From positions 1-38,072 of the forward strand of contig JAQUVQ010000024.1 in the NCBI GenBank assembly GCA_028693285.1: a stretch of DNA of 38,072 nucleotides, given 5' to 3'. The position numbers and the translations under genes are program-made. This stretch comes from Smithellaceae bacterium. Its GTDB lineage: Bacteria; Desulfobacterota; Syntrophia; Syntrophales; Smithellaceae. A model generated the notes under the pieces. The model did no database searches and was not told where the DNA came from. It saw only the letters and a program-made list of their open reading frames with translations. This document shows, in pieces, positions 19,214 through 32,952 of this stretch. How positions within the stretch are numbered: position 1 is the stretch's first letter; every line of letters begins with the position of its first letter.

Positions 19214-21052
19214 ATGTGGAAGCAGAAAATCGTTACCCCCGCGGATGTGCTGGAGAAAATTGATCCGGGAATGAGCATTTTCCTGGGAACGGGAATGGCC
19301 GAGCCCCGCACGCTGGTCCGGAATCTGATGGAATCCCGGCAGTACAACCTGCAGGACCTGGAGCTGATTCAACTGGTCAGCCTGGGCGACGCGGTGGCGA
19401 TCGACGAGCGCTACTCGCGGAAGTTCCGCCTCAAGACGTTTTATTCGGGATGGCTCGCCTCGGACGCCATCAGTCAGGGACGGGTGGACCTGATTCCCAG
19501 CCGTTTCTCCCGGGTGGCCTGGCTGTTCAAGACCGGCGCCATTCATATTGACGTGGCGTTCATTCAGGTGACGCCTCCCGACGAAAACGGCTACGCCTAC
19601 CTGGTGGGCGCGTCCGTAGAGCGGCAGGCCATGGAAATGGCGCAGATCGTCGTTGGGGAAATCAATTCGCAGATTCCCCGGACGATGGGCGACACGCTGG
19701 TGAACATGGCGGATTTCCATTACCTGGTCGAGGCGACCGAACCGCCGTATTACCTGGCGCGCTGGCCGCTGCAGGACGTGTATCTCAAAATCGCGGCCAA
19801 TGTCGCCTCGATGATTCCCGACGGAAGCTGCGTCTCTTACGGCATCGGGCCGCTTTACGAGGCGCTGGCCAAGTCCCTGGCCGCCAAAAAAAACCTGGGC
19901 GTGCATTCGCCCTTCTTCACCGACGCCCTGATGGACCTGGTGAAAAGCGGCGCCGTGACCAACCGCTATAAAAACATCTTCCGCGGCAAGTCCTGCGCCT
20001 CCTACGTGCTGGGCACCAAGGAGCTGATGTCCTGGCTGGATTTGAATCCGCTTGTGGAATTTCAGCCGCAGGATATTGTGATGGATCCGCGCACCATCGG
20101 GGTCAACGACAACATGATTGCGATTTTTCCGGCGCGGAAAGTGGACCTGACCGGCTGCGTCGCGCTCCACACCGGCAAAGGAAACGTAACCGCGGGTCCC
20201 GGCAACGTCGCGGAGCTTTTCATGGGCGCGGCGCTTTCCAGAAACGGCCGGAGCATTTTTGCCCTGCCCAGCCGCAACCGCAAGGGAAAGCCCAATATTC
20301 TGCTGTCGCTGGACCAGTACCCCTTTCAGTTCACGAACCGCGAATCGATGGATATCGTCGTTACGGAATACGGCGTGGCGCTGCTCATGGGCAAGACCCT
20401 GCGCGAACGGGCGCAGGCGCTCATCGAGATTGCCCATCCGGACGACCGGGCCGAACTGGTCCGCCAGGCCAAGGAAGAAAAGATGATCTACGCCGACCAG
20501 ATTTATTTTCCGGATTCCGGTCATCTGTATCCCGAGAAGATCGCCTGCTCGCACCGGTTTCGGGATTTGCTGACCGTCCGTTTCCGGGCGATCAAGCCCT
20601 CCGACGAAGAAGAAATGCGCCGCCTGTTCTACCGGTTTTCCGATCAGGCGGTGTATTACCGGTATTTCAGCCCGATCAAGACCATGCCGCACAAGAAAAT
20701 GCAGGAATACGTGAACGTCGATTACCGCCACACGATGTCCATCGTGGCGATCGTGGACGAATCCGGCGTGGAAAAGATTATCGGGGAGGCCCGCTACGTC
20801 AAAACGCGGGGGGAGCCTTTTGCCGATACGGCTTTCATCGTGGATGAGCAGTACCAGGGGATGGGCATTTCAACGTACCTGTTCAATCTGCTGATCCGCG
20901 CGGCCCGCGAAGAAGGCATCGCCGGATTCAAGGCCGACGTACTGGAAAACAACCGGGCCATGCTGAAAGTGTACGAGAAGGCGCTCTATCCGGTGCAGAC
21001 GGTTTTATCCGGCGGCGTCTATAAAATCACGATCCCCTTCAGCGAAAAGTAA
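19214..21052 (+). CDS. Acetyl-CoA hydrolase/transferase-family protein fused to a GNAT acetyltransferase domain
   Basis: 612 residues. The N-terminal part (about 1-430) is an acetyl-CoA hydrolase / 4-hydroxybutyrate CoA-transferase-like domain: VTPADVLEKIDPGMSIFLGTGMAEPR, VAFIQVTPPDENGY, and DIVVTEYGVALLMGKTLRERAQALIEIAHPDDR. The C-terminal part (about 450-612) is a GNAT domain with DEQYQGMGISTYLFNLLIRAAREEG (acetyl-CoA pyrophosphate loop QYQGMG) and VLENNRAMLKVYEK. CoA-transferase/GNAT fusions exist in Deltaproteobacteria. The two halves would share acyl-CoA; protein or metabolite acylation coupled to CoA transfer is inference. Second gene of an operon with the dehydrogenase. Confidence 0.85.
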   Translation: MWKQKIVTPADVLEKIDPGMSIFLGTGMAEPRTLVRNLMESRQYNLQDLELIQLVSLGDAVAIDERYSRKFRLKTFYSGWLASDAISQGRVDLIPSRFSRVAWLFKTGAIHIDVAFIQVTPPDENGYAYLVGASVERQAMEMAQIVVGEINSQIPRTMGDTLVNMADFHYLVEATEPPYYLARWPLQDVYLKIAANVASMIPDGSCVSYGIGPLYEALAKSLAAKKNLGVHSPFFTDALMDLVKSGAVTNRYKNIFRGKSCASYVLGTKELMSWLDLNPLVEFQPQDIVMDPRTIGVNDNMIAIFPARKVDLTGCVALHTGKGNVTAGPGNVAELFMGAALSRNGRSIFALPSRNRKGKPNILLSLDQYPFQFTNRESMDIVVTEYGVALLMGKTLRERAQALIEIAHPDDRAELVRQAKEEKMIYADQIYFPDSGHLYPEKIACSHRFRDLLTVRFRAIKPSDEEEMRRLFYRFSDQAVYYRYFSPIKTMPHKKMQEYVNVDYRHTMSIVAIVDESGVEKIIGEARYVKTRGEPFADTAFIVDEQYQGMGISTYLFNLLIRAAREEGIAGFKADVLENNRAMLKVYEKALYPVQTVLSGGVYKITIPFSEK

Positions 21053-21087: not shown

Positions 21088-22047
21088 CTACGCGAGGTTT
21101 TTCAAAACCACGCCCCGTCTTTTGAGTTCTCCCCTTTTGGCCGCAAGGCCTTCCGCCGCGACGCGGTCAAGCACATAAATCAATTCTCCGCCCTGTTCGG
21201 CGTACTTCTGCCCCCAGGAGATGGGAATGTCCGGCGTGACCTCGCCCAGGAGCGACCGCGTCACGGATTCCGTTTTGCGCGCGCCGTTGGCCAGCAGCAG
21301 AACGGTTTTCGCCCGGTACACCAGTTCGGCCCCCATGCTGACGGCGTATTGCGGGGACTGCGCCCTGGTCTTGAAATGCCCGTCGGCGACGGCATTGGCG
21401 ATGGTGTTGTCGTCGAGCTTGACCAGCAGAACGCGGCTGTCCTGGAAGGGAATGCCCGATTCGTGGAAAGCCACGTGGCCGCGTCCGCCCACGCCGATGA
21501 TCTGCAGGTCGATGCCGCCCGCCGCCCGGATTTTCCGCTCGTAGCCGCCCAGAATGTCTTTTCGAATCCAGGCGAGGTAGGCCGACTTCGGACGGGCGTT
21601 GATGACAATGGATTTCCCCGCGTCCGCTCCCCGGAATTCCCAGTCGTTTTTGTTTTGACGGAGCTCCCGGATCAGGATTTTCTGGTCGATCAAAGAGCCG
21701 GCGGGAACGCTGGTTTCGATGAATTTTTTCGTCAGGAGGCCGAACAGCTCCTGGATCATGAAGTACGCGTAGCTTTCCGGATGAAGAAGGCGCTGCTGGG
21801 CATGCTCACCCGGCAGGCCGGCGTACTCGTCCAGGTTGAAGCTGCGGATCCGGCCGGCGTCAAATTTTCCCTCATTGGCCGCCCGGGCGAAATGCTTGTA
21901 GAGCCCCGTGGGCGAGTTCCCCGTGGCCAGCCCCAGCACCGCTTCACTCTTGTGTTTCAGGATGTCGATGGTTTTCCGAACGGCAATGCCGGCTGCCGCC
22001 TCGCTCATGTGCGCAAAGTCTCTCGTTACCCAGACGGTGATGCCCAT
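21088..22047 (-). CDS. nagB: Glucosamine-6-phosphate deaminase-like protein
   Basis: 319 residues, longer than NagB (about 240-270). Signatures: GLATGNSPTGLYKHF (about 39-53), FNLDEYAGL with the catalytic Asp, and IIGVGGRGHVAFHESG, corresponding to GVGNDGHIAFNEP of E. coli; the active-site His and Glu are kept but the Asp before GH is Arg. The middle (roughly residues 95-165) holds a stretch not typical of NagB. NagB converts glucosamine 6-phosphate to fructose 6-phosphate and ammonia. The start MGITVWVTRDF is 20 bp after the glmM stop, so both form an operon. Deaminase activity is likely but not certain. Confidence 0.75.
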   Translation of the reverse strand: MGITVWVTRDFAHMSEAAAGIAVRKTIDILKHKSEAVLGLATGNSPTGLYKHFARAANEGKFDAGRIRSFNLDEYAGLPGEHAQQRLLHPESYAYFMIQELFGLLTKKFIETSVPAGSLIDQKILIRELRQNKNDWEFRGADAGKSIVINARPKSAYLAWIRKDILGGYERKIRAAGGIDLQIIGVGGRGHVAFHESGIPFQDSRVLLVKLDDNTIANAVADGHFKTRAQSPQYAVSMGAELVYRAKTVLLLANGARKTESVTRSLLGEVTPDIPISWGQKYAEQGGELIYVLDRVAAEGLAAKRGELKRRGVVLKNLA

Positions 22048-22067
22048 AATCCATTTTCCCTTTCGTG

Positions 22068-23417
22068 TTACCCCAGTTCGCTTTTCACGACGTCGGCGAT
22101 CTGCCGGCAGTATTTTTCCGTCACCGCGTCGGACGGTCCCTCCACCATGACGCGGCACATATTCTGCGTTCCCGAATAGCGGACCAGCACCCGTCCTTCG
22201 CCGGCCAGCTCACTCTCCGCCTGTCGAATGGCTTCGACGAGCTTCGGCACTTTCTCGATGTCCGGTTTGCGCCGTACGTCCACGTTGATCAGCTTCTGCG
22301 GAAAGATATCCATCATCCGCGCCAGTTCGGAAAGAGGCTTTCCCTCCTTGATCATTGCCGCCACGAGCTGCAAAGCGGCAATGATGCCGTCTCCCGTCGT
22401 GTGATGGTCCAGGAAAATCATGTGCCCCGCTTCTTCCCCCCCGATGATGCCGTCGAGCCGTTTCATGTCCTCCAGGACATAGCGGTCGCCGACTTTGGAG
22501 GCATGGTGGCGGAAGCCGTATTTTTTGCAGGCCACGGTCAGACCGAGGTTGCTCATGACGGTGGTGACCAGCAGGTTGTTTTTCAGTTTGCCTTCGCGCT
22601 TCAGGATATTGGCGCAGATGACCATGATCTGGTCGCCCGTGATTTCCCGGCCCTTTTCATCCACGGCAATCAGGCGGTCTCCGTCTCCGTCAAAGGCCAG
22701 GCCGATGGCCGCTTTGCACTCCACCACTTTTCTCCGGAGAATTTCCGTGTGCTGAGAGCCGCAGCCGTCATTGATGTTGGTTCCGTTGGGCGTTTTGTGA
22801 ATGACTTCGATGCTGGCGCCCAGTTCATGGAACGTGTCGGGGGCGACCTTGTACGTGGCGCCGTTGGCGGTGTCCAGAACGATTTTCATGCCTTCCATGG
22901 AAAGATTGCGGGGAAAGGTGTTTTTGGCAAAGACGATGTAGCGTCCGTTCACGCCGTCCAGGCGGTATGCCTTTCCGATGTCCTGACCCCTGGACACCAG
23001 GTCGGAAAGTTTGTTGTTGAGGATCAGGTCTTCGATGAATTCCTCCTGCTCGTCGGAAAGCTTGTAGCCGTCGCCGCCGAAAATCTTCAGGCCGTTGTCC
23101 TGAAAGGGATTGTGGGACGCGGAAATCACGACACCCGCGTCGGCGCGCATGCTCTGGGTGACGAAGGCGATCGCCGGCGTGGGCATCACGCCGACCAGGT
23201 AGGAATAGCCCCCCATGGACGTGATGCCGGCTTCCAGCGAGCTCTCCAGCATGTAGCCGGAAAGCCGGGTGTCTTTCCCGATAATGATGACGGCCCGGTG
23301 TCCGTTCTTTTTAAACAAATGCGCCATGGCCCGCCCGACGCCAAAGGCGATTTCAGGGGTCATGGGATATTGATTCGCTTCTCCTCGAATTCCGTCAGTG
23401 CCGAATAACTTGCCCAT
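22068..23417 (-). CDS. glmM: Phosphoglucosamine mutase
   Basis: 449 residues, normal length. N terminus MGKLFGTDGIRGEAN, active-site phosphoserine loop GVVISASHNPFQDNGLK (about residues 95-111), metal loop AFDGDGDRLIAVDE (about 240-253), and sugar/phosphate loops GGEEAGHMIF and RYSGTQNMCRVMVEG. GlmM turns glucosamine 6-phosphate into glucosamine 1-phosphate for UDP-GlcNAc. GGAGACC lies about seven bases before the ATG. It stands between the GlmU-like gene (61 bp upstream) and nagB (20 bp downstream). Confidence 0.96.
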   Translation of the reverse strand: MGKLFGTDGIRGEANQYPMTPEIAFGVGRAMAHLFKKNGHRAVIIIGKDTRLSGYMLESSLEAGITSMGGYSYLVGVMPTPAIAFVTQSMRADAGVVISASHNPFQDNGLKIFGGDGYKLSDEQEEFIEDLILNNKLSDLVSRGQDIGKAYRLDGVNGRYIVFAKNTFPRNLSMEGMKIVLDTANGATYKVAPDTFHELGASIEVIHKTPNGTNINDGCGSQHTEILRRKVVECKAAIGLAFDGDGDRLIAVDEKGREITGDQIMVICANILKREGKLKNNLLVTTVMSNLGLTVACKKYGFRHHASKVGDRYVLEDMKRLDGIIGGEEAGHMIFLDHHTTGDGIIAALQLVAAMIKEGKPLSELARMMDIFPQKLINVDVRRKPDIEKVPKLVEAIRQAESELAGEGRVLVRYSGTQNMCRVMVEGPSDAVTEKYCRQIADVVKSELG

Positions 23418-23478: not shown

Positions 23479-24720
23479 TCAGTTCCTGAATAATCCCATC
23501 GACGGCATGGCCCGCGCAGCCTGATTGCAGAGCGCCCCGACGATGCCGTTTAACCATGCCGTCCCTTTTGCAGAAACCGCCCCGGGCAGTTTCCGGACTG
23601 CTCCGACGTAGTCGGTTCTGTCATTTCCCGCGCTTTTTTCGAAGTCTTGCAGAAAGGCTTCGAGAAGCGGATCCGTTTTCGTGAAGCCGTCCGGTATTTT
23701 TCCGGTGAAGAGGTCTTCGCAGAAACCGGTTTGTTCAAGAAACTCTTTTCTGGCTTCCTCTTCCGGCCCGGGATTGGCGGCGGCTTTTTGGGCCATCGCC
23801 TTTAGCCTCTTCAGCCGCTCTTTTTTGGCCGAGGCCAGCGTCTCCAGAACGCCCGCGTAAATCAGCGGGCCGAACGGCCGGGCATCCAAAAACGGCCTGC
23901 GGACGTGCGCGTACCAGGATTCCAGAGCGGACAGGTTGGCCAGATACAGGATATTGTTTTCCACGATTCTCCGCAGGTTCGGGTAAGCGGCGCGACGATA
24001 GTTTTTCGCGCCGTCCGCGGGCGTTGTCTCAAAAATCAACAGGCCGTCATCGGGATAATCATGGCGCAGGACCGAGCCCGCGGCCGCGACGTTGCCGAAT
24101 CCCATGCGCACCGGACCGATGATGCCGCCCTGGCCGCCCAGAAAAATGGGGGGCTGGTTGAGCATTACGCCCCGGGGAACATCCCCCAGGAGGGAAGGGG
24201 TTGTTTTGTCCGCGTCCGGCGTGAAATTGAAGTGAATGTAGGAACTGCCCACTTCGGAGTGGTTGCTGCGGCTGGTCCCGCCGGCCATCAGGCAGTCGCA
24301 GAAGTTGATCAGGCTGCCCAGCGTGACAAAGGGAAAGAGAATGGTCTGTTTCAGGCCGACCGAGTGGGCGCCGCCCGCTTCTTCCTCCAGGAGGCATCCT
24401 TCCCGGACGTGCGCGCCCATTCCGAGGTTTGCCTTCTCCAGAAAAACCGATTTGCTGAAGAAGCCTCCCTTCAGCTCGACGCGCTCTCCGATCTGACAGT
24501 CCTCGATGGTCGCCGGCGCTTCATACCCCAGCTTGCAGCCGGACGAGATGACGGTTTTCCCGCCGTAAATCCGGCATCCGGGATAGATCGCTGTGCCCTT
24601 TCCCGAAATCTGATCGATCTTGACGTCGTCGCCGATGTCCAGCGTCGCCGGATTGGGGATGTTTACCCCTTTGTCCAGCAGCTGCTGTATTTTTTCATGG
24701 GATCTCGGCTTAAAATCCAT
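23479..24720 (-). CDS. GlmU-like left-handed beta-helix protein without a nucleotidyltransferase domain
   Basis: About 413 residues. The first 240 or so show hexapeptide-like turns (ATLDIGDDVKIDQISGKGTAIYP, GCRIYGGKTVISSGCKLG, ATIEDCQIGERVELKGGFFSKS) as in the beta-helix half of GlmU; the rest is helical and charged. In related bacteria such proteins are annotated as UDP-N-acetylglucosamine pyrophosphorylase-related or protein GlmU, but the LxxGxGTRM-type uridylyltransferase motif is absent. It precedes glmM, so a role in hexosamine 1-phosphate acetylation or scaffolding is plausible. Start MDFKPRS has GGGGG five bases upstream; an ATG at 24732 lies at the edge of repeat DNA. Confidence 0.7.
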   Translation of the reverse strand: MDFKPRSHEKIQQLLDKGVNIPNPATLDIGDDVKIDQISGKGTAIYPGCRIYGGKTVISSGCKLGYEAPATIEDCQIGERVELKGGFFSKSVFLEKANLGMGAHVREGCLLEEEAGGAHSVGLKQTILFPFVTLGSLINFCDCLMAGGTSRSNHSEVGSSYIHFNFTPDADKTTPSLLGDVPRGVMLNQPPIFLGGQGGIIGPVRMGFGNVAAAGSVLRHDYPDDGLLIFETTPADGAKNYRRAAYPNLRRIVENNILYLANLSALESWYAHVRRPFLDARPFGPLIYAGVLETLASAKKERLKRLKAMAQKAAANPGPEEEARKEFLEQTGFCEDLFTGKIPDGFTKTDPLLEAFLQDFEKSAGNDRTDYVGAVRKLPGAVSAKGTAWLNGIVGALCNQAARAMPSMGLFRN

Positions 24721-24734
24721 ACAGGCCCCCATTG

Positions 24735-24886: not shown

Positions 24887-26281
<1,395 letters not shown>

Positions 26282-27283
26282 TTAAATTGTCTCAATATCG
26301 CGCATTTTCTCAAATTCCATGACGGTGGACATGGCTTTGTTGTCCACCGTCAGTCCTTCCTCGCAAACCGCCGCCACCGGATTCAGGCCGCCGATCAGAA
26401 TCATCCCGATTTTATTCATATCCACATGGGTCTGACAAACCGGGTGTCCAATGTGGCCGATGGAAAGAACGCCGTGCAGGCCGGCCCCGGCGAAATCCTC
26501 CATCACCCGCTCCACCAGAGGGAGGCTGAGCGCGGGGATTTCCCGGAAGTTGGCCAGAATTTTTCCTTCGCCGGTCCTGGCGACGCTTCGGACGGACGTC
26601 ATTTTGCCGCGGATGAAGATTTCCGAAGGGTCCAGCGAGGAGCCGGCGTAGTGAATCAGCTCCACGAAACGAAGGATTTTCCCGCCGCGCATCTGGAGAA
26701 TGCCGCCGAATTTGGAGTCGATCGGAATGCCGTGCTTCAACAGAACGCCGTTGATGACGATGCTGCAGACGGTGGCGAAGCCGACGCTGCCTTCCGGCAC
26801 CGCGATGTCCCCCAGGCTTTTTCCGGCCTGCGCCACGGCCACGCGCGAGCTGACGGCCAGTTTTTGCTGAAACACGGGCTTCATGATGGAGAGGGCCCGG
26901 GAAAAATGCTCTTTCGGAAAGAAGGAGACGTTGACCGGCACCAGGCCGCGCTTCTTTTTGACGTCAAAGGTGGTTCGAAACGAGAGAAGGTCGATGCGCG
27001 AAATGGAAAGGCCGATCTTATCCTGCACGCGGGCGTCGGAAATTTCGGCAAATCCCTGTTCGGTGATTACGCGGCCGTCGCGGCGGCCCACGAGTTTGGT
27101 GAGCCCCCGTTCATCCATGATCTTCAGGTGGTAGCGGACCGTTCTCTCGCTGAGCTGCACGTGATAATCCGACATTCGGCGGGCAATGACGCGCGCGCCC
27201 ATCGGATCTGGGCTTTCGTGGAGGATCTTCAGAATCAGAAGAACCTTCCGTTCAATGTCTTCTGGTTTAAAAAGCTCTTTCAT
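26282..27283 (-). CDS. NrpR-like nitrogen regulator (HTH + DUF128)
   Basis: 333 residues. N-terminal winged-helix domain (about 1-75): IERKVLLILKILHESPDPMGARVIARRM...LSERTVRYHLKIMDERGL. The rest (about 80-333) is one NrpR/DUF128 domain with GLVPVNVSFFPKEHF, GSVGFATVCSIVINGVLLKHGIPIDSKFGG and GMILIGGLNPVAAVCEEG. NrpR of methanogens represses nitrogen-assimilation genes and is released by 2-oxoglutarate; it often carries two such domains, while this protein has one. Its place directly before gdhA fits control of ammonia assimilation. GGAAG lies four bases before the ATG; a frame extending to 27391 has no start support. Confidence 0.85.
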   Translation of the reverse strand: MKELFKPEDIERKVLLILKILHESPDPMGARVIARRMSDYHVQLSERTVRYHLKIMDERGLTKLVGRRDGRVITEQGFAEISDARVQDKIGLSISRIDLLSFRTTFDVKKKRGLVPVNVSFFPKEHFSRALSIMKPVFQQKLAVSSRVAVAQAGKSLGDIAVPEGSVGFATVCSIVINGVLLKHGIPIDSKFGGILQMRGGKILRFVELIHYAGSSLDPSEIFIRGKMTSVRSVARTGEGKILANFREIPALSLPLVERVMEDFAGAGLHGVLSIGHIGHPVCQTHVDMNKIGMILIGGLNPVAAVCEEGLTVDNKAMSTVMEFEKMRDIETI

Positions 27284-27302
27284 TCGACTTCCAATCGGCA
27301 AT

Positions 27303-27349
27303 CGGCAATCGTTTGCCGTATCCCTACTTGCAAACCGTTTGTTTGTCAA
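27303..27349 (-). promoter_or_regulatory. Promoter and palindromic operator candidates of the nrpR-gdhA operon
   Basis: On minus, TTGACA (27344-27349), 17 bp, TAGGGA (27321-27326). The spacer holds CAAAC-G-GTTTG (27331-27341), and just downstream of the -10 lies CGGCAA-TCGT-TTGCCG (27303-27318). Two related palindromes covering the promoter suggest an autorepressed operon. They do not match the GGAA-N6-TTCC operator of methanogen NrpR. A short heptamer run CAATCGG, CAATCGG, CAATCG overlaps the downstream end (27292-27311). Confidence 0.45.
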
Positions 27350-27409
27350 ATAAAATTTTCGGCCGCTTCGAAAGAGCGCTCCGGAAGGCAAAAAGAGCGG
27401 GGAAGGGCC

Positions 27410-30400
27410 TCACGTGAAGGCCGTGTTTTTCACGGGGGAAGGGTTGCAGCGGGCCTGAATCCGCCTGGCGATTTCCTCGACGGATTCCCCAAACAGGCAT
27501 TCCAGCGGCAGCGCCTCCATGTACCGGTCGTTCCACGCCAGGTTGTATTCGTTGATTAAATTGCGGATGTCGTCATACCGGTGTCCCAGGACCTCGATTT
27601 TTTCCGGCCCGCTCAAGCGCTCATTGAAGGCGATATGGATCAGCAGCAGGTTTCCGATCCGGCCGTCCGTTTCCTGCAGGGGGATGACCATGATGGAAGC
27701 GGAATCGATTTTTCCCCGGCCCAGATAAGCATGGCCTGTGCTGACGATGGTTTTCTTGACCCCCATCAGAGTTGTGGGCTGCTCCGCGCGGGAGGACATG
27801 CGCAGGGCTGCGCCGCCTTTGGCGCATACCGCAATGGTCGAAGCCGGTCCGGGATTTCCCTTTTCGTCGAGGCCGCGCACACGGTAGAGCGTGTAGCCTT
27901 CCACCGCCCCCACGGACGGCTGGAGGCGGTGAATCGTCCTGATGTTGCGCCAGGTCAGATTTTTTACGGAGAAGTTCAGCGCTCCGAGCAGGTCGAAAAC
28001 AACGCCCTGGGGCTCTTTTTCCTTTCGGCTGGTTCCCACCGTCACGGTTTTGGCCTGATGGCGGATGGCGTCGATCGGACGGGTCAGTTCATCAATGGCG
28101 GCTCCCAGGGTTTCATCCAGCAGGTCGAACGGCTGGACCAGGTCTTCGTGTCCGGGGAAATCCTGGCGGATGTCCTGAAGCGGCAGTTTCCCGGATGCGT
28201 ACTTCAGCAGCAGCGTGAGATCGGCGATGGTTTTGCCGCCCAGCGCGCTCAACGCGCCGCCCTGAAGCCGGGATTGAAACCGGCTGCAGAAATCGTTGAT
28301 GATCCGGCGGAAGGAAGGATCGGCCATCAGATCAAAAACGTCCAAAACGGATAACTTCGTTTTTTTCTTTTGCAGCCGGCCGAGCGCCAGGCGGCCGCGG
28401 AACGCCCTGAAGAGCTGCGCTTCCCCGTCGATGGCGCAGGCCGCGTAATAGCCCCACAGGTGGCCCGCCATGGTATTGAGAATCACGGAAAGGGGGGCGG
28501 GTGTCTTTGGAACGGCAATGACCGCGTCGGCCGCGGGATGAAAGCGCAAATCCCCTTCATCGGCGAAAACGACGGTCGCCGCTTTGTGCGCCCGAAAGAT
28601 GGCGATGTCCTTCGCGATGTCGTCCAGTACGACATCGGGATTGCCGGCGGCGCAGACCAGAATCAGCGGCTCGGCGGACAGGTCGATGTGCTTTTTATTT
28701 TCCACGATGTCCGAAGAAATGGTTTTGTAGCACATTTCGGAAAGCTTGATGCGGATTTCGTCGGCCGCCGCCTTGTTGGGGCCGCTGCCCACGACGGCCC
28801 AGTAGCGCTTGCCCGCGCCCTGCGTTACACAGGCGGCGATTTCGTCGCGCCGGTCGAACAAGCGCTGCATGGCTTGCGGAATGTTTTCAAGATGCCGGAT
28901 CCGGCGGACAATGGCTTCGTCGCTCATCGTCCCCAGCAGTTTGGCGAAATACAGGGCCAGCAACTGTCCGGCAACGAGCTGGGCGTAGAAGGCCTTGGTG
29001 GAGGCGACGGACATTTCAATGTCCCGTCCGTCGCTGGTGTAAAAAACGCCGTGCGACGAGGCGGTGATATCCGACTGGCGGCGGTTGACGATGGAGAGAA
29101 TCTGCGCGCCGCGCGCCCTGGCCATGGACACGGCCCGGTTGGTGTCCGTGGTGGTTCCGGACTGCGTGATGGGGATGACCAGCGTATCCGACAGATCGTC
29201 CCGAAGGCCGAAGCCGCTCATTTCGGACGCGACGCGCGACTGGATATTGAGACGGCTCATGCCGAGGCAGTGCGCCAGCGCATCCGCCACCGCCTGTCCC
29301 GCCACCGCCGCCGTGCCGTGGCCGATGACGAAGATGTTCCGCGTCAAGCCGCTCTGCAGGCCGTTTCGAATCGAGGCGGGAACCATATCCTCGCCCAGAT
29401 TGAAAAGAATCCCGGACGGAGCGGAGGCGGCGCCGGTGATCCGGTATTTCCCCCGCAGCGTTCCCTGGACGGAACGGACGGATTCTGAAATTTCTTTGAG
29501 AAAGAAATGGGGGAAACAGCCGCGGTCAATGTCCCGGGTCGTGATTTCGGCGGTTTGCAGATTCCGCTCTTCCAGATGAATCGGGGCTCCGTCGTAGCAG
29601 CAGGCGGCAATGCCCTTTGCGCCCGTGCCTCGGTTTTGATCCAGAATGAACAGTTGTCCGCCCGCCTCCTCGCCGTTCATCCGGATGAAGCGGGGTGCAA
29701 TCTCCACCAGTCCATAGAGCTCCGAGGAAATCATGTACGCGTCTTCTCCGACGCCGACGTAAATCGACTGGCCGTTCCCCTGAAGCGCCAGAAATATTTT
29801 GCCCGGCTCCAGATTGCTTTGCATGGCAATGGCGTGCGAACCTTCGAAATCGTTTACGGCCAGCCTGAAGGCGTCTGTCAGGTTTTGCCCTTTTCTCAGA
29901 TATTTTTCGATTTGCAGGGGAATGATTTTGGTGTCCGTCGAGACGTCCGGCGCGATTTGCTCCCCGTCTTGCTCCAGGTCCCTGCGAAGCGCCGGATAAT
30001 TGTCGATGTCGCCGTTGAGCACCACGCTGATGTGCGCTTCCCGCCCCGGATACGCGGGGAAATCGGACAATTCCGGACGAAGGGTTGCGTTGTTGACCGG
30101 ATGACAATTTTCTTCGGTGATGGAGCCCACGGAGGCCCACCGGGTGTGGGCGATGGCGGATTCGTCCGCCGACGCCCGTGCGGCAAACCATTGAAGAATG
30201 GCGTCGCGGGAGATCCATTGCCGCAGGTCGGCGACGTTGCGGCCCAGTTCGCCGACCACGGAAAAGGTTTTGTAGGTAAAGGCAATATGAATTCCGCCGC
30301 CGGGATTTTGAGCGCCGCCGGAAATAAAAATGGACCGGTTTATGAGATCGCCTTTTTGCGTCCGGCGCCGGTAATCCTCCCCCCATCCGTTTTCTTCGAT

Positions 30401-31153
30401 CCGCCGGTCCAGTTCCTCAAGGACCTTTGCGTCTTTGAGGAAAAAAGCCAACTGGATGCCCGCCGAGTCCCGTCCCCGGACCTCCAGACGATCCAGCGCG
30501 TTTAACAGCAGATTCAGCTTCCGGTATTTTCGAAAGGCGGCCGGTTGAAGCGAAGAATATTTTTCCGCTCCGGAAAGCGAGAGAACTTTTTGCAGGTTGG
30601 CCAGGATGTCGCTCTCCAGCATCCAGCAAATGTCCTTGAGCGAGAGCAGCCGGCGGTTGACGGTTTCAAGGCCGGCGGAGCTCAGCCCTGCCGCCCGGTC
30701 CTCCAGAATTTTCTCTTCCGCGGCCAGAAAGGCTTTCATCCCGCCGGCGACGCGGGTCAAATCCGCCGTCCGGTCTTTCTGAAAAAAAAGACATTCCTGG
30801 ACATCTTCCCGCTTCAGCCGGTTGACGCAATCCGCGAGAGACTGGATCGTTTCCGGGCCGTTCAAATAACCGCCCGGGTCGGTTTTTCCGCCAAAGACCT
30901 GTTCCAGCCCGTTCTTATTTGCTTTTTCCCAAAGCTTCCGAAGGGTTTGATCCGCCGGATCGCCGGGATTCTCCGGCGCCGGTTGAAAGGACAGCAGGCC
31001 TGCGAATCCGCAATTCAATCTGCCGGGGAGGATGGGAGAAAAAATGATTGCAGGTCCGCCAACTGATTCCGGCCGAATGCCGAAAAAAACCCGGCAATGT
31101 GTTACAAAAAAGAGCCATCTTTTTATCAGAAGAGACAATTTTGTATAGAACAT
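27410..31153 (-). CDS. Giant GlmS-like protein: class II glutamine amidotransferase, two SIS domains, unknown C-terminal domain
   Basis: About 1247 residues, twice GlmS (about 610). Cys48 in NCGFAGLLSF matches the nucleophile of MCGIxG; some 150 extra residues precede RLEVRGRDSAG (about 224-232). Then IAHTRWASVG (about 335), VVLNGDIDNYPALRRDL and STDTKII follow GlmS order. SIS1 (about 596-738) has ITQSGTTTDT and SVASTKAFYAQL; SIS2 (about 778-898) keeps Glu806 and His822 with the 16-residue spacing of GlmS E488/H504. The Schiff-base Lys of the GlmS C terminus is not evident, and about 320 unfamiliar residues follow. GAGG precedes the ATG pair at 31153/31156, giving a 47-residue leader before Cys48; a TTG at 31018 would give M-N-C-G. 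Acceptor sugar unknown. Confidence 0.8.
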   Translation of the reverse strand: MFYTKLSLLIKRWLFFVTHCRVFFGIRPESVGGPAIIFSPILPGRLNCGFAGLLSFQPAPENPGDPADQTLRKLWEKANKNGLEQVFGGKTDPGGYLNGPETIQSLADCVNRLKREDVQECLFFQKDRTADLTRVAGGMKAFLAAEEKILEDRAAGLSSAGLETVNRRLLSLKDICWMLESDILANLQKVLSLSGAEKYSSLQPAAFRKYRKLNLLLNALDRLEVRGRDSAGIQLAFFLKDAKVLEELDRRIEENGWGEDYRRRTQKGDLINRSIFISGGAQNPGGGIHIAFTYKTFSVVGELGRNVADLRQWISRDAILQWFAARASADESAIAHTRWASVGSITEENCHPVNNATLRPELSDFPAYPGREAHISVVLNGDIDNYPALRRDLEQDGEQIAPDVSTDTKIIPLQIEKYLRKGQNLTDAFRLAVNDFEGSHAIAMQSNLEPGKIFLALQGNGQSIYVGVGEDAYMISSELYGLVEIAPRFIRMNGEEAGGQLFILDQNRGTGAKGIAACCYDGAPIHLEERNLQTAEITTRDIDRGCFPHFFLKEISESVRSVQGTLRGKYRITGAASAPSGILFNLGEDMVPASIRNGLQSGLTRNIFVIGHGTAAVAGQAVADALAHCLGMSRLNIQSRVASEMSGFGLRDDLSDTLVIPITQSGTTTDTNRAVSMARARGAQILSIVNRRQSDITASSHGVFYTSDGRDIEMSVASTKAFYAQLVAGQLLALYFAKLLGTMSDEAIVRRIRHLENIPQAMQRLFDRRDEIAACVTQGAGKRYWAVVGSGPNKAAADEIRIKLSEMCYKTISSDIVENKKHIDLSAEPLILVCAAGNPDVVLDDIAKDIAIFRAHKAATVVFADEGDLRFHPAADAVIAVPKTPAPLSVILNTMAGHLWGYYAACAIDGEAQLFRAFRGRLALGRLQKKKTKLSVLDVFDLMADPSFRRIINDFCSRFQSRLQGGALSALGGKTIADLTLLLKYASGKLPLQDIRQDFPGHEDLVQPFDLLDETLGAAIDELTRPIDAIRHQAKTVTVGTSRKEKEPQGVVFDLLGALNFSVKNLTWRNIRTIHRLQPSVGAVEGYTLYRVRGLDEKGNPGPASTIAVCAKGGAALRMSSRAEQPTTLMGVKKTIVSTGHAYLGRGKIDSASIMVIPLQETDGRIGNLLLIHIAFNERLSGPEKIEVLGHRYDDIRNLINEYNLAWNDRYMEALPLECLFGESVEEIARRIQARCNPSPVKNTAFT

Positions 31154-31555
31154 CATTTCCTCTTGAACTGCTGCGGGGCGGTTGTAAAACGAAACCGGCC
31201 GCGGCGGTTTTGTCGACAAGAACATCAGTCCCCATGCCGCGGCTGAGTCATTCGCGCCGCCCCTGGGGATTGCGATGATGGATTTGGCGCCGTCCAATTC
31301 TTCCGCTCCCTGCTTTTCAGGGGGCTTTGCCGGATGCATTACGCAAAAACCATTCCTGAATTTCTCAGGCCGATTCCGCCTGGTGCGACGCCGAAGATGA
31401 AAAAGCCGAGGCCTTTCTCTTTTGGATTGGGAAAGCGGATAAGGGATGCGACCCTGAAGATCCTGTGCGGGAGAGTTTCAGGGCGGAGCATTCCCCGGGG
31501 CGGAGAGGCTCCGATGCGGGGTAAATCATTTCAGGGATGGATGGGAAGAGAATCT
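31154..31555. other. Gap upstream of the giant GlmS-like gene
   Basis: About 400 bp with no supported gene. The GlmS-like frame stays open to 31339 but without start support. It contains a perfect palindrome TTGTCGACAA (31210-31219) and a nested hairpin (31493-31521) with outer arms CCCCG/CGGGG and inner GGAG-AGG-CTCC just after the Fis-like stop. No T-run follows the hairpin on minus, so a terminator call is not justified. Confidence 0.45.
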
Positions 31556-31864
31556 CTATTCTTTTTCGCCGTCGAGGCCCAGCTTGGCCATTTTATCGGT
31601 AAAGGTATTGCGGTGGATGCCGAGAAATGCCGCCGCCGAGCTTTTGACGTTGCCGGAGCGCCTTAAAGCGATTTTGAAAAGGCCCGTTTCCACCATCGCC
31701 ATGACCTCCGCGTGAAGTTTGCTTCTGCCGTTGTCGGAGCCCGACAGGACCGTCGCCAGATCATCCAGCTTTTTTTCCAGAATTTCTTCGACGGCCTTGT
31801 TGAGGGCCTCCTGAACGTCTATTCCCGCGGCCGGGTTAATCTGCTTTTTCGCTTTCATGTTCAT
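31556..31864 (-). CDS. Fis-type helix-turn-helix protein
   Basis: 102 residues. The C-terminal 45 residues (MVETGLFKIALRRSGNVKSSAAAFLGIHRNTFTDKMAKLGL) match the Fis-family HTH found at the end of NtrC-type regulators and in stand-alone Fis proteins; the N-terminal half is helical with DVQEALNKAVEEILEKKLDDL. No AAA+ or receiver domain is present, so it may be a small nucleoid or accessory DNA-binding protein. CAGGAG precedes the ATG by five bases. It lies between the PH-domain membrane protein gene and the giant GlmS-like gene on the same strand. Confidence 0.75.
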   Translation of the reverse strand: MNMKAKKQINPAAGIDVQEALNKAVEEILEKKLDDLATVLSGSDNGRSKLHAEVMAMVETGLFKIALRRSGNVKSSAAAFLGIHRNTFTDKMAKLGLDGEKE

Positions 31865-31939
31865 GCAGCTCCTGCGTTTCAAAACATTGTTTCATTCCAA
31901 CCGTTCCCTTCAGAATTCCGGACGATCCGCGTGAAAACA

Positions 31940-32452
31940 TCAGGCCGCGAGCCATCGGGTCAGCACCACGGCAACCAAAAGAACCAGGGCGACCCAGGTC
32001 AGCACGATGAGCGATGTCCGTTCTTTGGGGGCTTCGATGTAATTTTTGATTTCCGTTTCCACTCTTTCATCTTCCAGCTTCTCCGCGAGCTGCCCGAGCA
32101 GGCGCGTGTGGTCCTGCAGGAGGTTGGAGAAGAGATAAAATCCCTTGGTCGTCGTGAGCAGGAAATAGGCCTTGCTGCGCAGGATGACCGTGCCCAGGTG
32201 CGTGATTTCCGCCCAGGTGAAATGCCTGGTCCGGAAAAATTTTCGAATCCGCAGGCCGTTTTCGGAAATGCCGAATTCCCGCTCCGAGGATTCAACGGCC
32301 ACGACCAGCGCGGCGGCAAACAAAGCGCCCGTCAGGATTTTTTCCCAGCATTCGCCGCGCGCCAGCCCCGTCAGAAACAGAACGAACAGCAGGACCGTCA
32401 GCGTGACGAAAGGATAACGGAAAGCTTTCCTGATTTTGTAAACAGCGTTCAC
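31940..32452 (-). CDS. Small membrane protein with PH-like (bPH) domain
   Basis: 170 residues. Two N-terminal membrane segments (about 13-35 FRYPFVTLTVLLFVLFLTGLA and 40-60 LTGALFAAALVVAV), a middle soluble domain FGISENGLRIRKFF...FTWAEITHLGTVILRSKAYFLLTT like bacterial PH domains, and a C-terminal membrane segment (about 148-168). Function unknown. The start GTG is chosen because GGAGA lies six bases upstream and the gene then begins 15 bp after the moaC stop; an upstream frame overlaps moaC. Confidence 0.65.
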   Translation of the reverse strand: MNAVYKIRKAFRYPFVTLTVLLFVLFLTGLARGECWEKILTGALFAAALVVAVESSEREFGISENGLRIRKFFRTRHFTWAEITHLGTVILRSKAYFLLTTTKGFYLFSNLLQDHTRLLGQLAEKLEDERVETEIKNYIEAPKERTSLIVLTWVALVLLVAVVLTRWLAA

Positions 32453-32466
32453 GCGTTGTCTCCGAA

Positions 32467-32952
32467 TTATTTTGCGGCTTTTCGGACGAAGGCGCCGCTC
32501 TTGCCGCCGGATTTTTCCAGAAGCAGAATCTCGCCGATGACCATTTCCCGGTCCACGGCTTTGCACATGTCATAAATGGTGAGCGCCGCGACGCTCACCG
32601 CGGTCAGCGCTTCCATTTCCACCCCGGTTTGCCCGACCGTCCGCACCTGCGATTCAATGACCACCCGTGATTTTTTTCGGTCGAGGACAAAGGTGATGTC
32701 CATGCCGGTCAGCCCCAGGGGATGGCACAGCGGAATGATGCCGCCGGTATTTTTGGCTGCCAGAATGCCTGCGATTTTAGCGGCGGTCAGCACGTTGCCC
32801 TTGGCGATGCGTCCCTCGGCCAGCAGCTTCATCGTGGCCGGCTTCATGGTTACCTGGCCGCGGGCTTTCGCCTGCCGGTGCGTTGCGGTTTTTGCCGTCA
32901 CATCCACCATCCGAACCTGACCTTCATCGTTGATATGAGATAATTTTTTCAT
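32467..32952 (-). CDS. moaC: Cyclic pyranopterin monophosphate synthase
   Basis: 161 residues, normal length. Signatures: MVDVTAKTATHRQAKARG, KIAGILAAKNTGGIIPLCHPLGLTG broken over residues 60-84 with active-site Lys and His, and TGVEMEALTAVSVAALTIYDMCKA (about 109-132). MoaC makes cyclic pyranopterin monophosphate in molybdenum/tungsten cofactor synthesis, needed by formate dehydrogenases and similar enzymes of anaerobes. No other moa gene lies in the window. The ribosome-binding site is weak. Confidence 0.95.
   Translation of the reverse strand: MKKLSHINDEGQVRMVDVTAKTATHRQAKARGQVTMKPATMKLLAEGRIAKGNVLTAAKIAGILAAKNTGGIIPLCHPLGLTGMDITFVLDRKKSRVVIESQVRTVGQTGVEMEALTAVSVAALTIYDMCKAVDREMVIGEILLLEKSGGKSGAFVRKAAK

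Follow-up and report, generated by a model that had tools for sequence, protein, structure and literature searches.

Is a protein of twice the usual size still a glucosamine-6-phosphate (GlcN6P) synthase (GlmS), and how would its catalytic cysteine, which lies behind a leader, become an N-terminal nucleophile? These questions are raised by a gene at 27410-31153 on the minus strand of the 38,072-nucleotide contig JAQUVQ010000024.1 of a Smithellaceae bacterium (assembly GCA_028693285.1), which was analysed in full and is referred to as the window. The encoded GlmS-like protein, hereafter the giant, has ~1,200 residues compared with 610 in canonical GlmS. The product of GlmS is the first committed precursor of peptidoglycan and lipopolysaccharide, and GlmS is usually treated as a uniform enzyme. 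With a probability of about 0.72, the giant is a divergent, double-size GlcN6P synthase, synthesized as a proenzyme, that takes the place of canonical GlmS in a lineage of anaerobic bacteria; its cleavage, activity, substrate and allostery are what we infer. We read it as a GlcN6P synthase because its catalytic set is nearly fixed, canonical glmS is nearly excluded from the genomes that carry it, MurA is present in the window's genome, and GlmM and one half of GlmU are encoded next to it.

Domain organization and catalytic residues

The minus-strand open reading frame (ORF) ends with its stop at 27410 and is open to an ATG at 31339 (27410-31339, 1309 amino acids). Residue numbers throughout are counted from this ATG, and the ATG at 31153 is residue 63. 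The reference set consisted of 68 distinct giants, in which identical sequences were counted once and ORFs below 1000 amino acids (partial giants) were dropped. The gene is real and conserved, and the protein is composed of the following parts:

31013-31153, minus strand: leader of 47 residues (63-109), probable propeptide
30989-31012, minus strand: Cys110 nucleophile and first strand of the class II glutaminase (CGFAGLLS); Cys in 68/68
30524-30988, minus strand: insertion 1 (residues 118-272), predicted to be all-helical, which splits the glutaminase domain and is absent from canonical GlmS; no Pfam match
29540-30523, minus strand: remaining glutaminase domain and linker (RGRDSAG, HTRWASVG, NG, D469)
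28427-29539, minus strand: isomerase domain (SIS1 and SIS2) with the TQSGTTTDT phosphate loop and E861, K865, E868 and H884
28088-28426, minus strand: insertion 2 (residues 972-1084), predicted to be helical, between SIS2 and the catalytic tail; no Pfam match
28031-28087, minus strand: C-terminal tail of canonical GlmS (RPIDAIRHQAKTVTVGT, residues 1085-1103) with the Schiff-base Lys1097 (codon 28049-28051)
27452-28030, minus strand: C-terminal domain (residues 1104-1296, ~195 residues) with a PAS/GAF-like fold

The order of the glutaminase and the two SIS domains is that of canonical GlmS and GFAT (TIGR01135, E. coli 1jxa, human GFAT1 6r4e). Of the 25 catalytic or motif residues compared, 23 are canonical throughout the 68 giants, including the tail with the Schiff-base lysine. 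Of the other two, S303 is Ala in 68/68, and S347 is Thr in 57/68 and Ser in 11/68 (positions 303, 347, 481, 485, 488, 504 and 603 follow the E. coli GlmS numbering). The glutaminase residues (Cys, R-x-DSAG, HTRWA, NG and D) are kept in 68/68 at each checked position. The same applies to E861, K865, E868, H884 and K1097, which match E481, K485, E488, H504 and K603, respectively. An earlier note on this DNA, made from the sequence alone, had placed the Glu/His pair of SIS2 at the canonical spacing, and E868/H884 bear this out. Its statement that the Schiff-base lysine is not evident was wrong. K1097 is invariant and lies in RHQAKTVTVG, the counterpart of the canonical RNLAKSVTVE tail, and residues 1087-1102 (RPIDAIRHQAKTVTVG) align with the canonical C-terminal QPRNLAKSVTVE. 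Moreover, the motif R-x-x-A-K-[ST]-V-T-V occurs once in the protein, at 1093-1101, and in none of 20,000 shuffles; a giant without this lysine was therefore rejected. The lysine is easily overlooked because insertion 2, of ~115 residues, parts SIS2 from the tail. The GP that follows H504 is replaced by ID in the giant. The giant very likely works like GlmS.

The predicted structure points in the same direction, as the structure prediction suggested by the earlier note returned GFAT and GlmS as the best Foldseek matches and helical insertions 1 and 2. The AlphaFold 2 (AF2) model of the mature protein (1188 amino acids, 29 alignment rows) has a predicted local distance difference test score (pLDDT) of 79.6. 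In VIA-align, the glutaminase domain matched 1xff (Z 28.6, root-mean-square deviation (rmsd) 1.9, 236 aligned) and the isomerase domain matched 2v4m (Z 29.5, rmsd 3.4, 322 aligned). Pfam recognized only GATase_6 (391-540), GATase_7 and SIS (667-796), and gave no match to the extra parts of the window protein. PRK00331 (NCBIfam) matched residues 389-969 with 273 bits, compared with a cut-off of 381. The insertion of 150 residues described earlier was recovered as ~155 residues within the glutaminase domain, with AF2 helices at model residues 20-176. Insertion 2 ranges from 91 to 114 residues across the 68 sequences.

Distribution relative to canonical GlmS

The distribution was determined in 296 Desulfobacterota genomes with a completeness of at least 90%. 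Genome searches were made within Desulfobacterota, and one wider contig scan was made with a single protein as query, which picks up close relatives. The giant was found in 38/296 genomes, in 17 families, and 241/296 genomes pass the TIGR01135 cut-off. The two enzymes almost exclude each other: 37 genomes have the giant only, 240 the canonical enzyme only, one has both and 18 have neither (Fisher p 2.7e-32, for genomes that are related and not independent). A match to the giant protein was also present in 50 of 59 near relatives. The search for a canonical glmS elsewhere in the window's genome, proposed earlier as a check, found no other GlmS-type gene in this 99% complete Syntrophales genome. 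In a quick tree, the giants form one clade, set apart by a long branch from 11 canonical GlmS (of 12 loci, L132 was left out because it had been read in a wrong frame).

The single genome with both enzymes (G214, loci L117 and L138) belongs to a family whose other sampled members have canonical GlmS only, which suggests that its giant may have been acquired. No giant was confirmed in viral contigs among 94 pattern matches. Plasmid records gave no match at 80% coverage; among the 318 partial matches, the best rows had 44% coverage at ~28% identity, as expected of ordinary GlmS. In open-access titles and abstracts, a giant or propeptide-bearing GlmS was not found, and a report elsewhere is possible.

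Translation start and leader

The start at ATG 31153, and with it the span 27410-31153 and the leader of 47 residues given in the earlier note, is supported by an AGAGGA site 5-10 bases upstream and by an alignment of 40 sequences: in 27 of them, among which is the window's, a start codon (26 ATG, 1 GTG) stands exactly 47 codons ahead of the Cys. The stretch upstream of 31153 has a median protein identity of 23% and is thus not conserved as protein, and a start at ATG 31339 was rejected for this reason. Initiation at TTG 31018, the alternative raised earlier, was also rejected, as only 2 of the 40 sequences have a TTG at this place and purifying selection acts on the leader (median dN/dS, the ratio of nonsynonymous to synonymous substitution rates, of 0.28 in 69 pairs). 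A glmS ribozyme or another Rfam element ahead of the gene was likewise rejected: the region 30900-32700 gave a single match, below threshold (E 0.43) and to an unrelated family, which was attributed to chance.

The leader precedes the Cys at fixed spacing in 63 of the 68 giants (in one it is truncated where the contig ends), and in most of them it comprises 42-48 residues. Its core is [IV][FY]xG+xPxxVxxPxhhhFP-x7-Cys. The residues before the Cys align without gaps, with Pro at -8 in 63/63, Phe at -9 in 56/63, Leu, Phe or Ile at -2 in 62/63 and Gly at -23 in 57/62. The leader is conserved and translated, as in a proenzyme of the N-terminal nucleophile (Ntn) amidotransferase type. The other five relatives are leaderless, each starting with ATG-TGC or GTG-TGC (Met/Val-Cys). 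Leader presence needs three changes in the quick tree, where the starred branches force three.

The leader and the invariant N-nucleophile Cys would be most simply reconciled if the leader were removed. This cleavage is well supported as a prediction, because a conserved, translated leader is combined with an invariant Cys and with leaderless relatives that start at Met/Val-Cys; it accords with the earlier proposal of propeptide removal as in GltB or PurF. GltB also carries a propeptide. The giant shares with B. subtilis PurF and GltB a leader before the CG motif and a Cys that must become N-terminal. It differs from them in its acceptor domain, which is SIS instead of a phosphoribosyltransferase or synthase domain, and in the conserved core of its leader with the invariant Pro at -8. 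PurF propeptide cleavage is cited in PMC3261824. Alternatively, the leader could stay on the enzyme, with the glutaminase working without a free alpha-amino group or with free ammonia being used. This would explain why Pro -8 and the spacing are conserved beyond what is expected of a discarded peptide. However, it is very unlikely, considering that the Cys and all glutaminase residues are invariant, that five relatives begin directly at Met/Val-Cys, and that class II amidotransferases need an N-terminal Cys for glutamine use (E. coli PurF data cited in PMC3261824).

In the proenzyme reading, a precursor would be made and its 47-residue leader removed, probably autoproteolytically, as happens in other Ntn amidotransferases, which would free Cys110. 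The glutaminase would then make ammonia for the SIS isomerase, where Lys1097 would form a Schiff base with fructose-6-phosphate, and E868 and H884 would perform the isomerisation chemistry. Since natural leaderless relatives can serve as controls, the conserved propeptide of this GlmS-type enzyme opens Ntn maturation to testing. In one locus (L071, MGQN01000036.1), a broken gene or an assembly error has left the giant as two neighbouring ORFs, 581 and 679 amino acids long.

C-terminal domain

The C-terminal domain had been described as 320 residues long. The new domain itself covers ~195 residues, whereas the remainder consists of insertion 2 and the GlmS tail. When modelled alone, it reached a pLDDT of 91.4. 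Its best VIA-align match was 7jsr (N-terminal segment of a large glutamate dehydrogenase; Z 9.1, rmsd 4.8, 160 aligned), and the GAF domain 3ci6 gave Z 8.4 (rmsd 4.7, 100 aligned). Over GAF, PAS and 7jsr, the Z values of 6.8-9.1 are weak and near background, and the likeness to these sensor domains and to the 7jsr segment is at the level of the fold. No sequence match above chance was obtained against Pfam and PDB sequences, and Foldseek with this domain gave no match at an E of 0.001 or below. The commonest weak Pfam match, MMACHC (best E 0.0073, 16/37 rows), was read as chance and rejected. The domain aligns without a gap in 37 rows and is present in 25 of 197 genomes, always within giants except for two short fragments. 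A short match to it (G090:C41:28439-28609, E 1.4e-4) lies in a 154-residue ORF ~7 kb from a giant gene.

Because the PAS/GAF-like domain starts within ~10 residues of the lysine loop, ligand binding to it could control closure of the active site. The giant is probably regulated through this domain by a putative ligand and allosteric coupling, and the sensor-like fold fits the earlier idea of a regulated GlmS variant. The extra parts could instead be lineage-specific insertions into a GlcN6P synthase that are structural and non-regulatory. The catalytic core is intact, the ligand is so far only presumed and the extra parts of the window protein lack a Pfam match, all of which would suit such an enzyme. 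Yet these parts are constrained, with a median dN/dS (69 pairs) of 0.22 for insertion 1, 0.12 for insertion 2 and 0.12 for the C-terminal domain (0.075 for SIS), and the C-terminal domain is free of indels and sensor-like. We therefore regard a purely structural role as rather unlikely. A more far-reaching form of the proenzyme reading is tentative, with the odds somewhat against it. According to this form, the giants would be a second, ancient Desulfobacterota GlmS clade in place of the canonical enzyme. As zymogens, they would have a glutaminase gated by the conserved propeptide and a PAS/GAF-like sensor wired directly to the Schiff-base-lysine loop, so that a metabolite would switch amino-sugar synthesis via the catalytic tail. 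With a sensor-like domain fused to the catalytic lysine tail, allosteric control can be tested directly.

Gene neighbourhood and a possible rival sugar

The neighbourhood was compared across 95 giant loci, a number in which some genomes are counted more than once and some flanks are short. The relevant genes are:

21088-22158, minus strand: NagB-like glucosamine-6-phosphate deaminase with an internal insertion, overlapping glmM; 131.9 bits compared with a nagB cut-off of 236.9
22068-23417, minus strand: phosphoglucosamine mutase GlmM, conserved neighbour (18/95 loci); TIGR01455 581 bits, cut-off 447.55
23479-24732, minus strand: acetyltransferase half of GlmU alone, 417 amino acids, conserved neighbour (42/95 loci); TIGR01173 positions 239-436
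24887-26248, minus strand: NADP glutamate dehydrogenase (gdh), after nrpR in the window's genome and close relatives
26282-27391, minus strand: NrpR-type nitrogen regulator, the next gene downstream of the giant in both the window's genome and its close relatives
31556-31882, minus strand: small regulator of the Fis type (HTH_8), encoded upstream of the giant in many loci of Syntrophales
G000:C53:22006-22716, on another contig: 311-residue ORF for the uridylyltransferase half of GlmU

The NagB-like gene leads to the remaining alternative, in which the giant aminates a different phosphosugar, as the earlier note had considered, and GlcN6P comes from the deaminase running in reverse with ammonia. 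The overlap of this gene with glmM, the Ala at S303 (with Thr at S347 in most giants), the change of GP to ID after H504, and nrpR and gdh in the same cluster would all be compatible with it. Against it stand the retention of every Schiff-base and isomerase residue, the almost one-for-one replacement of canonical GlmS by the giant, the lack of a canonical glmS in the window's genome, and the adjoining glmM and glmU half. Furthermore, the NagB-like gene was found in only 10/38 giant-bearing genomes (and distantly in 1/24 canonical ones); it is thus a rival GlcN6P source in the window's genome and not the general one. Amination of another sugar is accordingly weakened, and we consider it improbable.

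The suggested tie to nitrogen status holds locally and not in general, because nrpR adjoins the giant in 13/95 loci and gdh in 4/95, mostly in the window's genus and close relatives.

Several observations weigh against the giant as a GlcN6P synthase replacing GlmS. It scores 239.1 bits with the TIGR01135 equivalog, below the cut-off of 418.05, and its core identity to canonical GlmS is 24-32%, compared with 51-74% among the canonical ones. Residues 851-904, which hold E861-H884, mostly have a pLDDT below 50, and the model leaves the isomerase active-site geometry unverified. The C-terminal domain resembles known folds weakly (best Foldseek E 1e-3). The clustered NagB-like gene offers a possible source of GlcN6P from ammonia, although 28/38 giant-bearing genomes are without it. 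Finally, 12 giant-less genomes, 10 of them 94-100% complete, also fall below the canonical GlmS cut-off, which implies a third route or gaps in the assemblies.

The giant is not filed as a TIGR01135 GlmS, by the curated cut-off and by its architecture, which is interrupted by two insertions and continues into the C-terminal domain instead of ending at the catalytic tail. A divergent form below this cut-off appears to serve 17 families of the sampled phylum, and annotation of these genomes may call glmS missing, because the giant falls below it.

GlmU is split in the window's genome, where no full GlmU passes its cut-off: a left-handed-helix protein with the acetyltransferase only and an extra C-terminal part is encoded apart from the 311-residue uridylyltransferase. 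Further along the window, on the plus strand (19214-21052), acetyl-CoA hydrolase/transferase domains are fused to a GNAT acetyltransferase.

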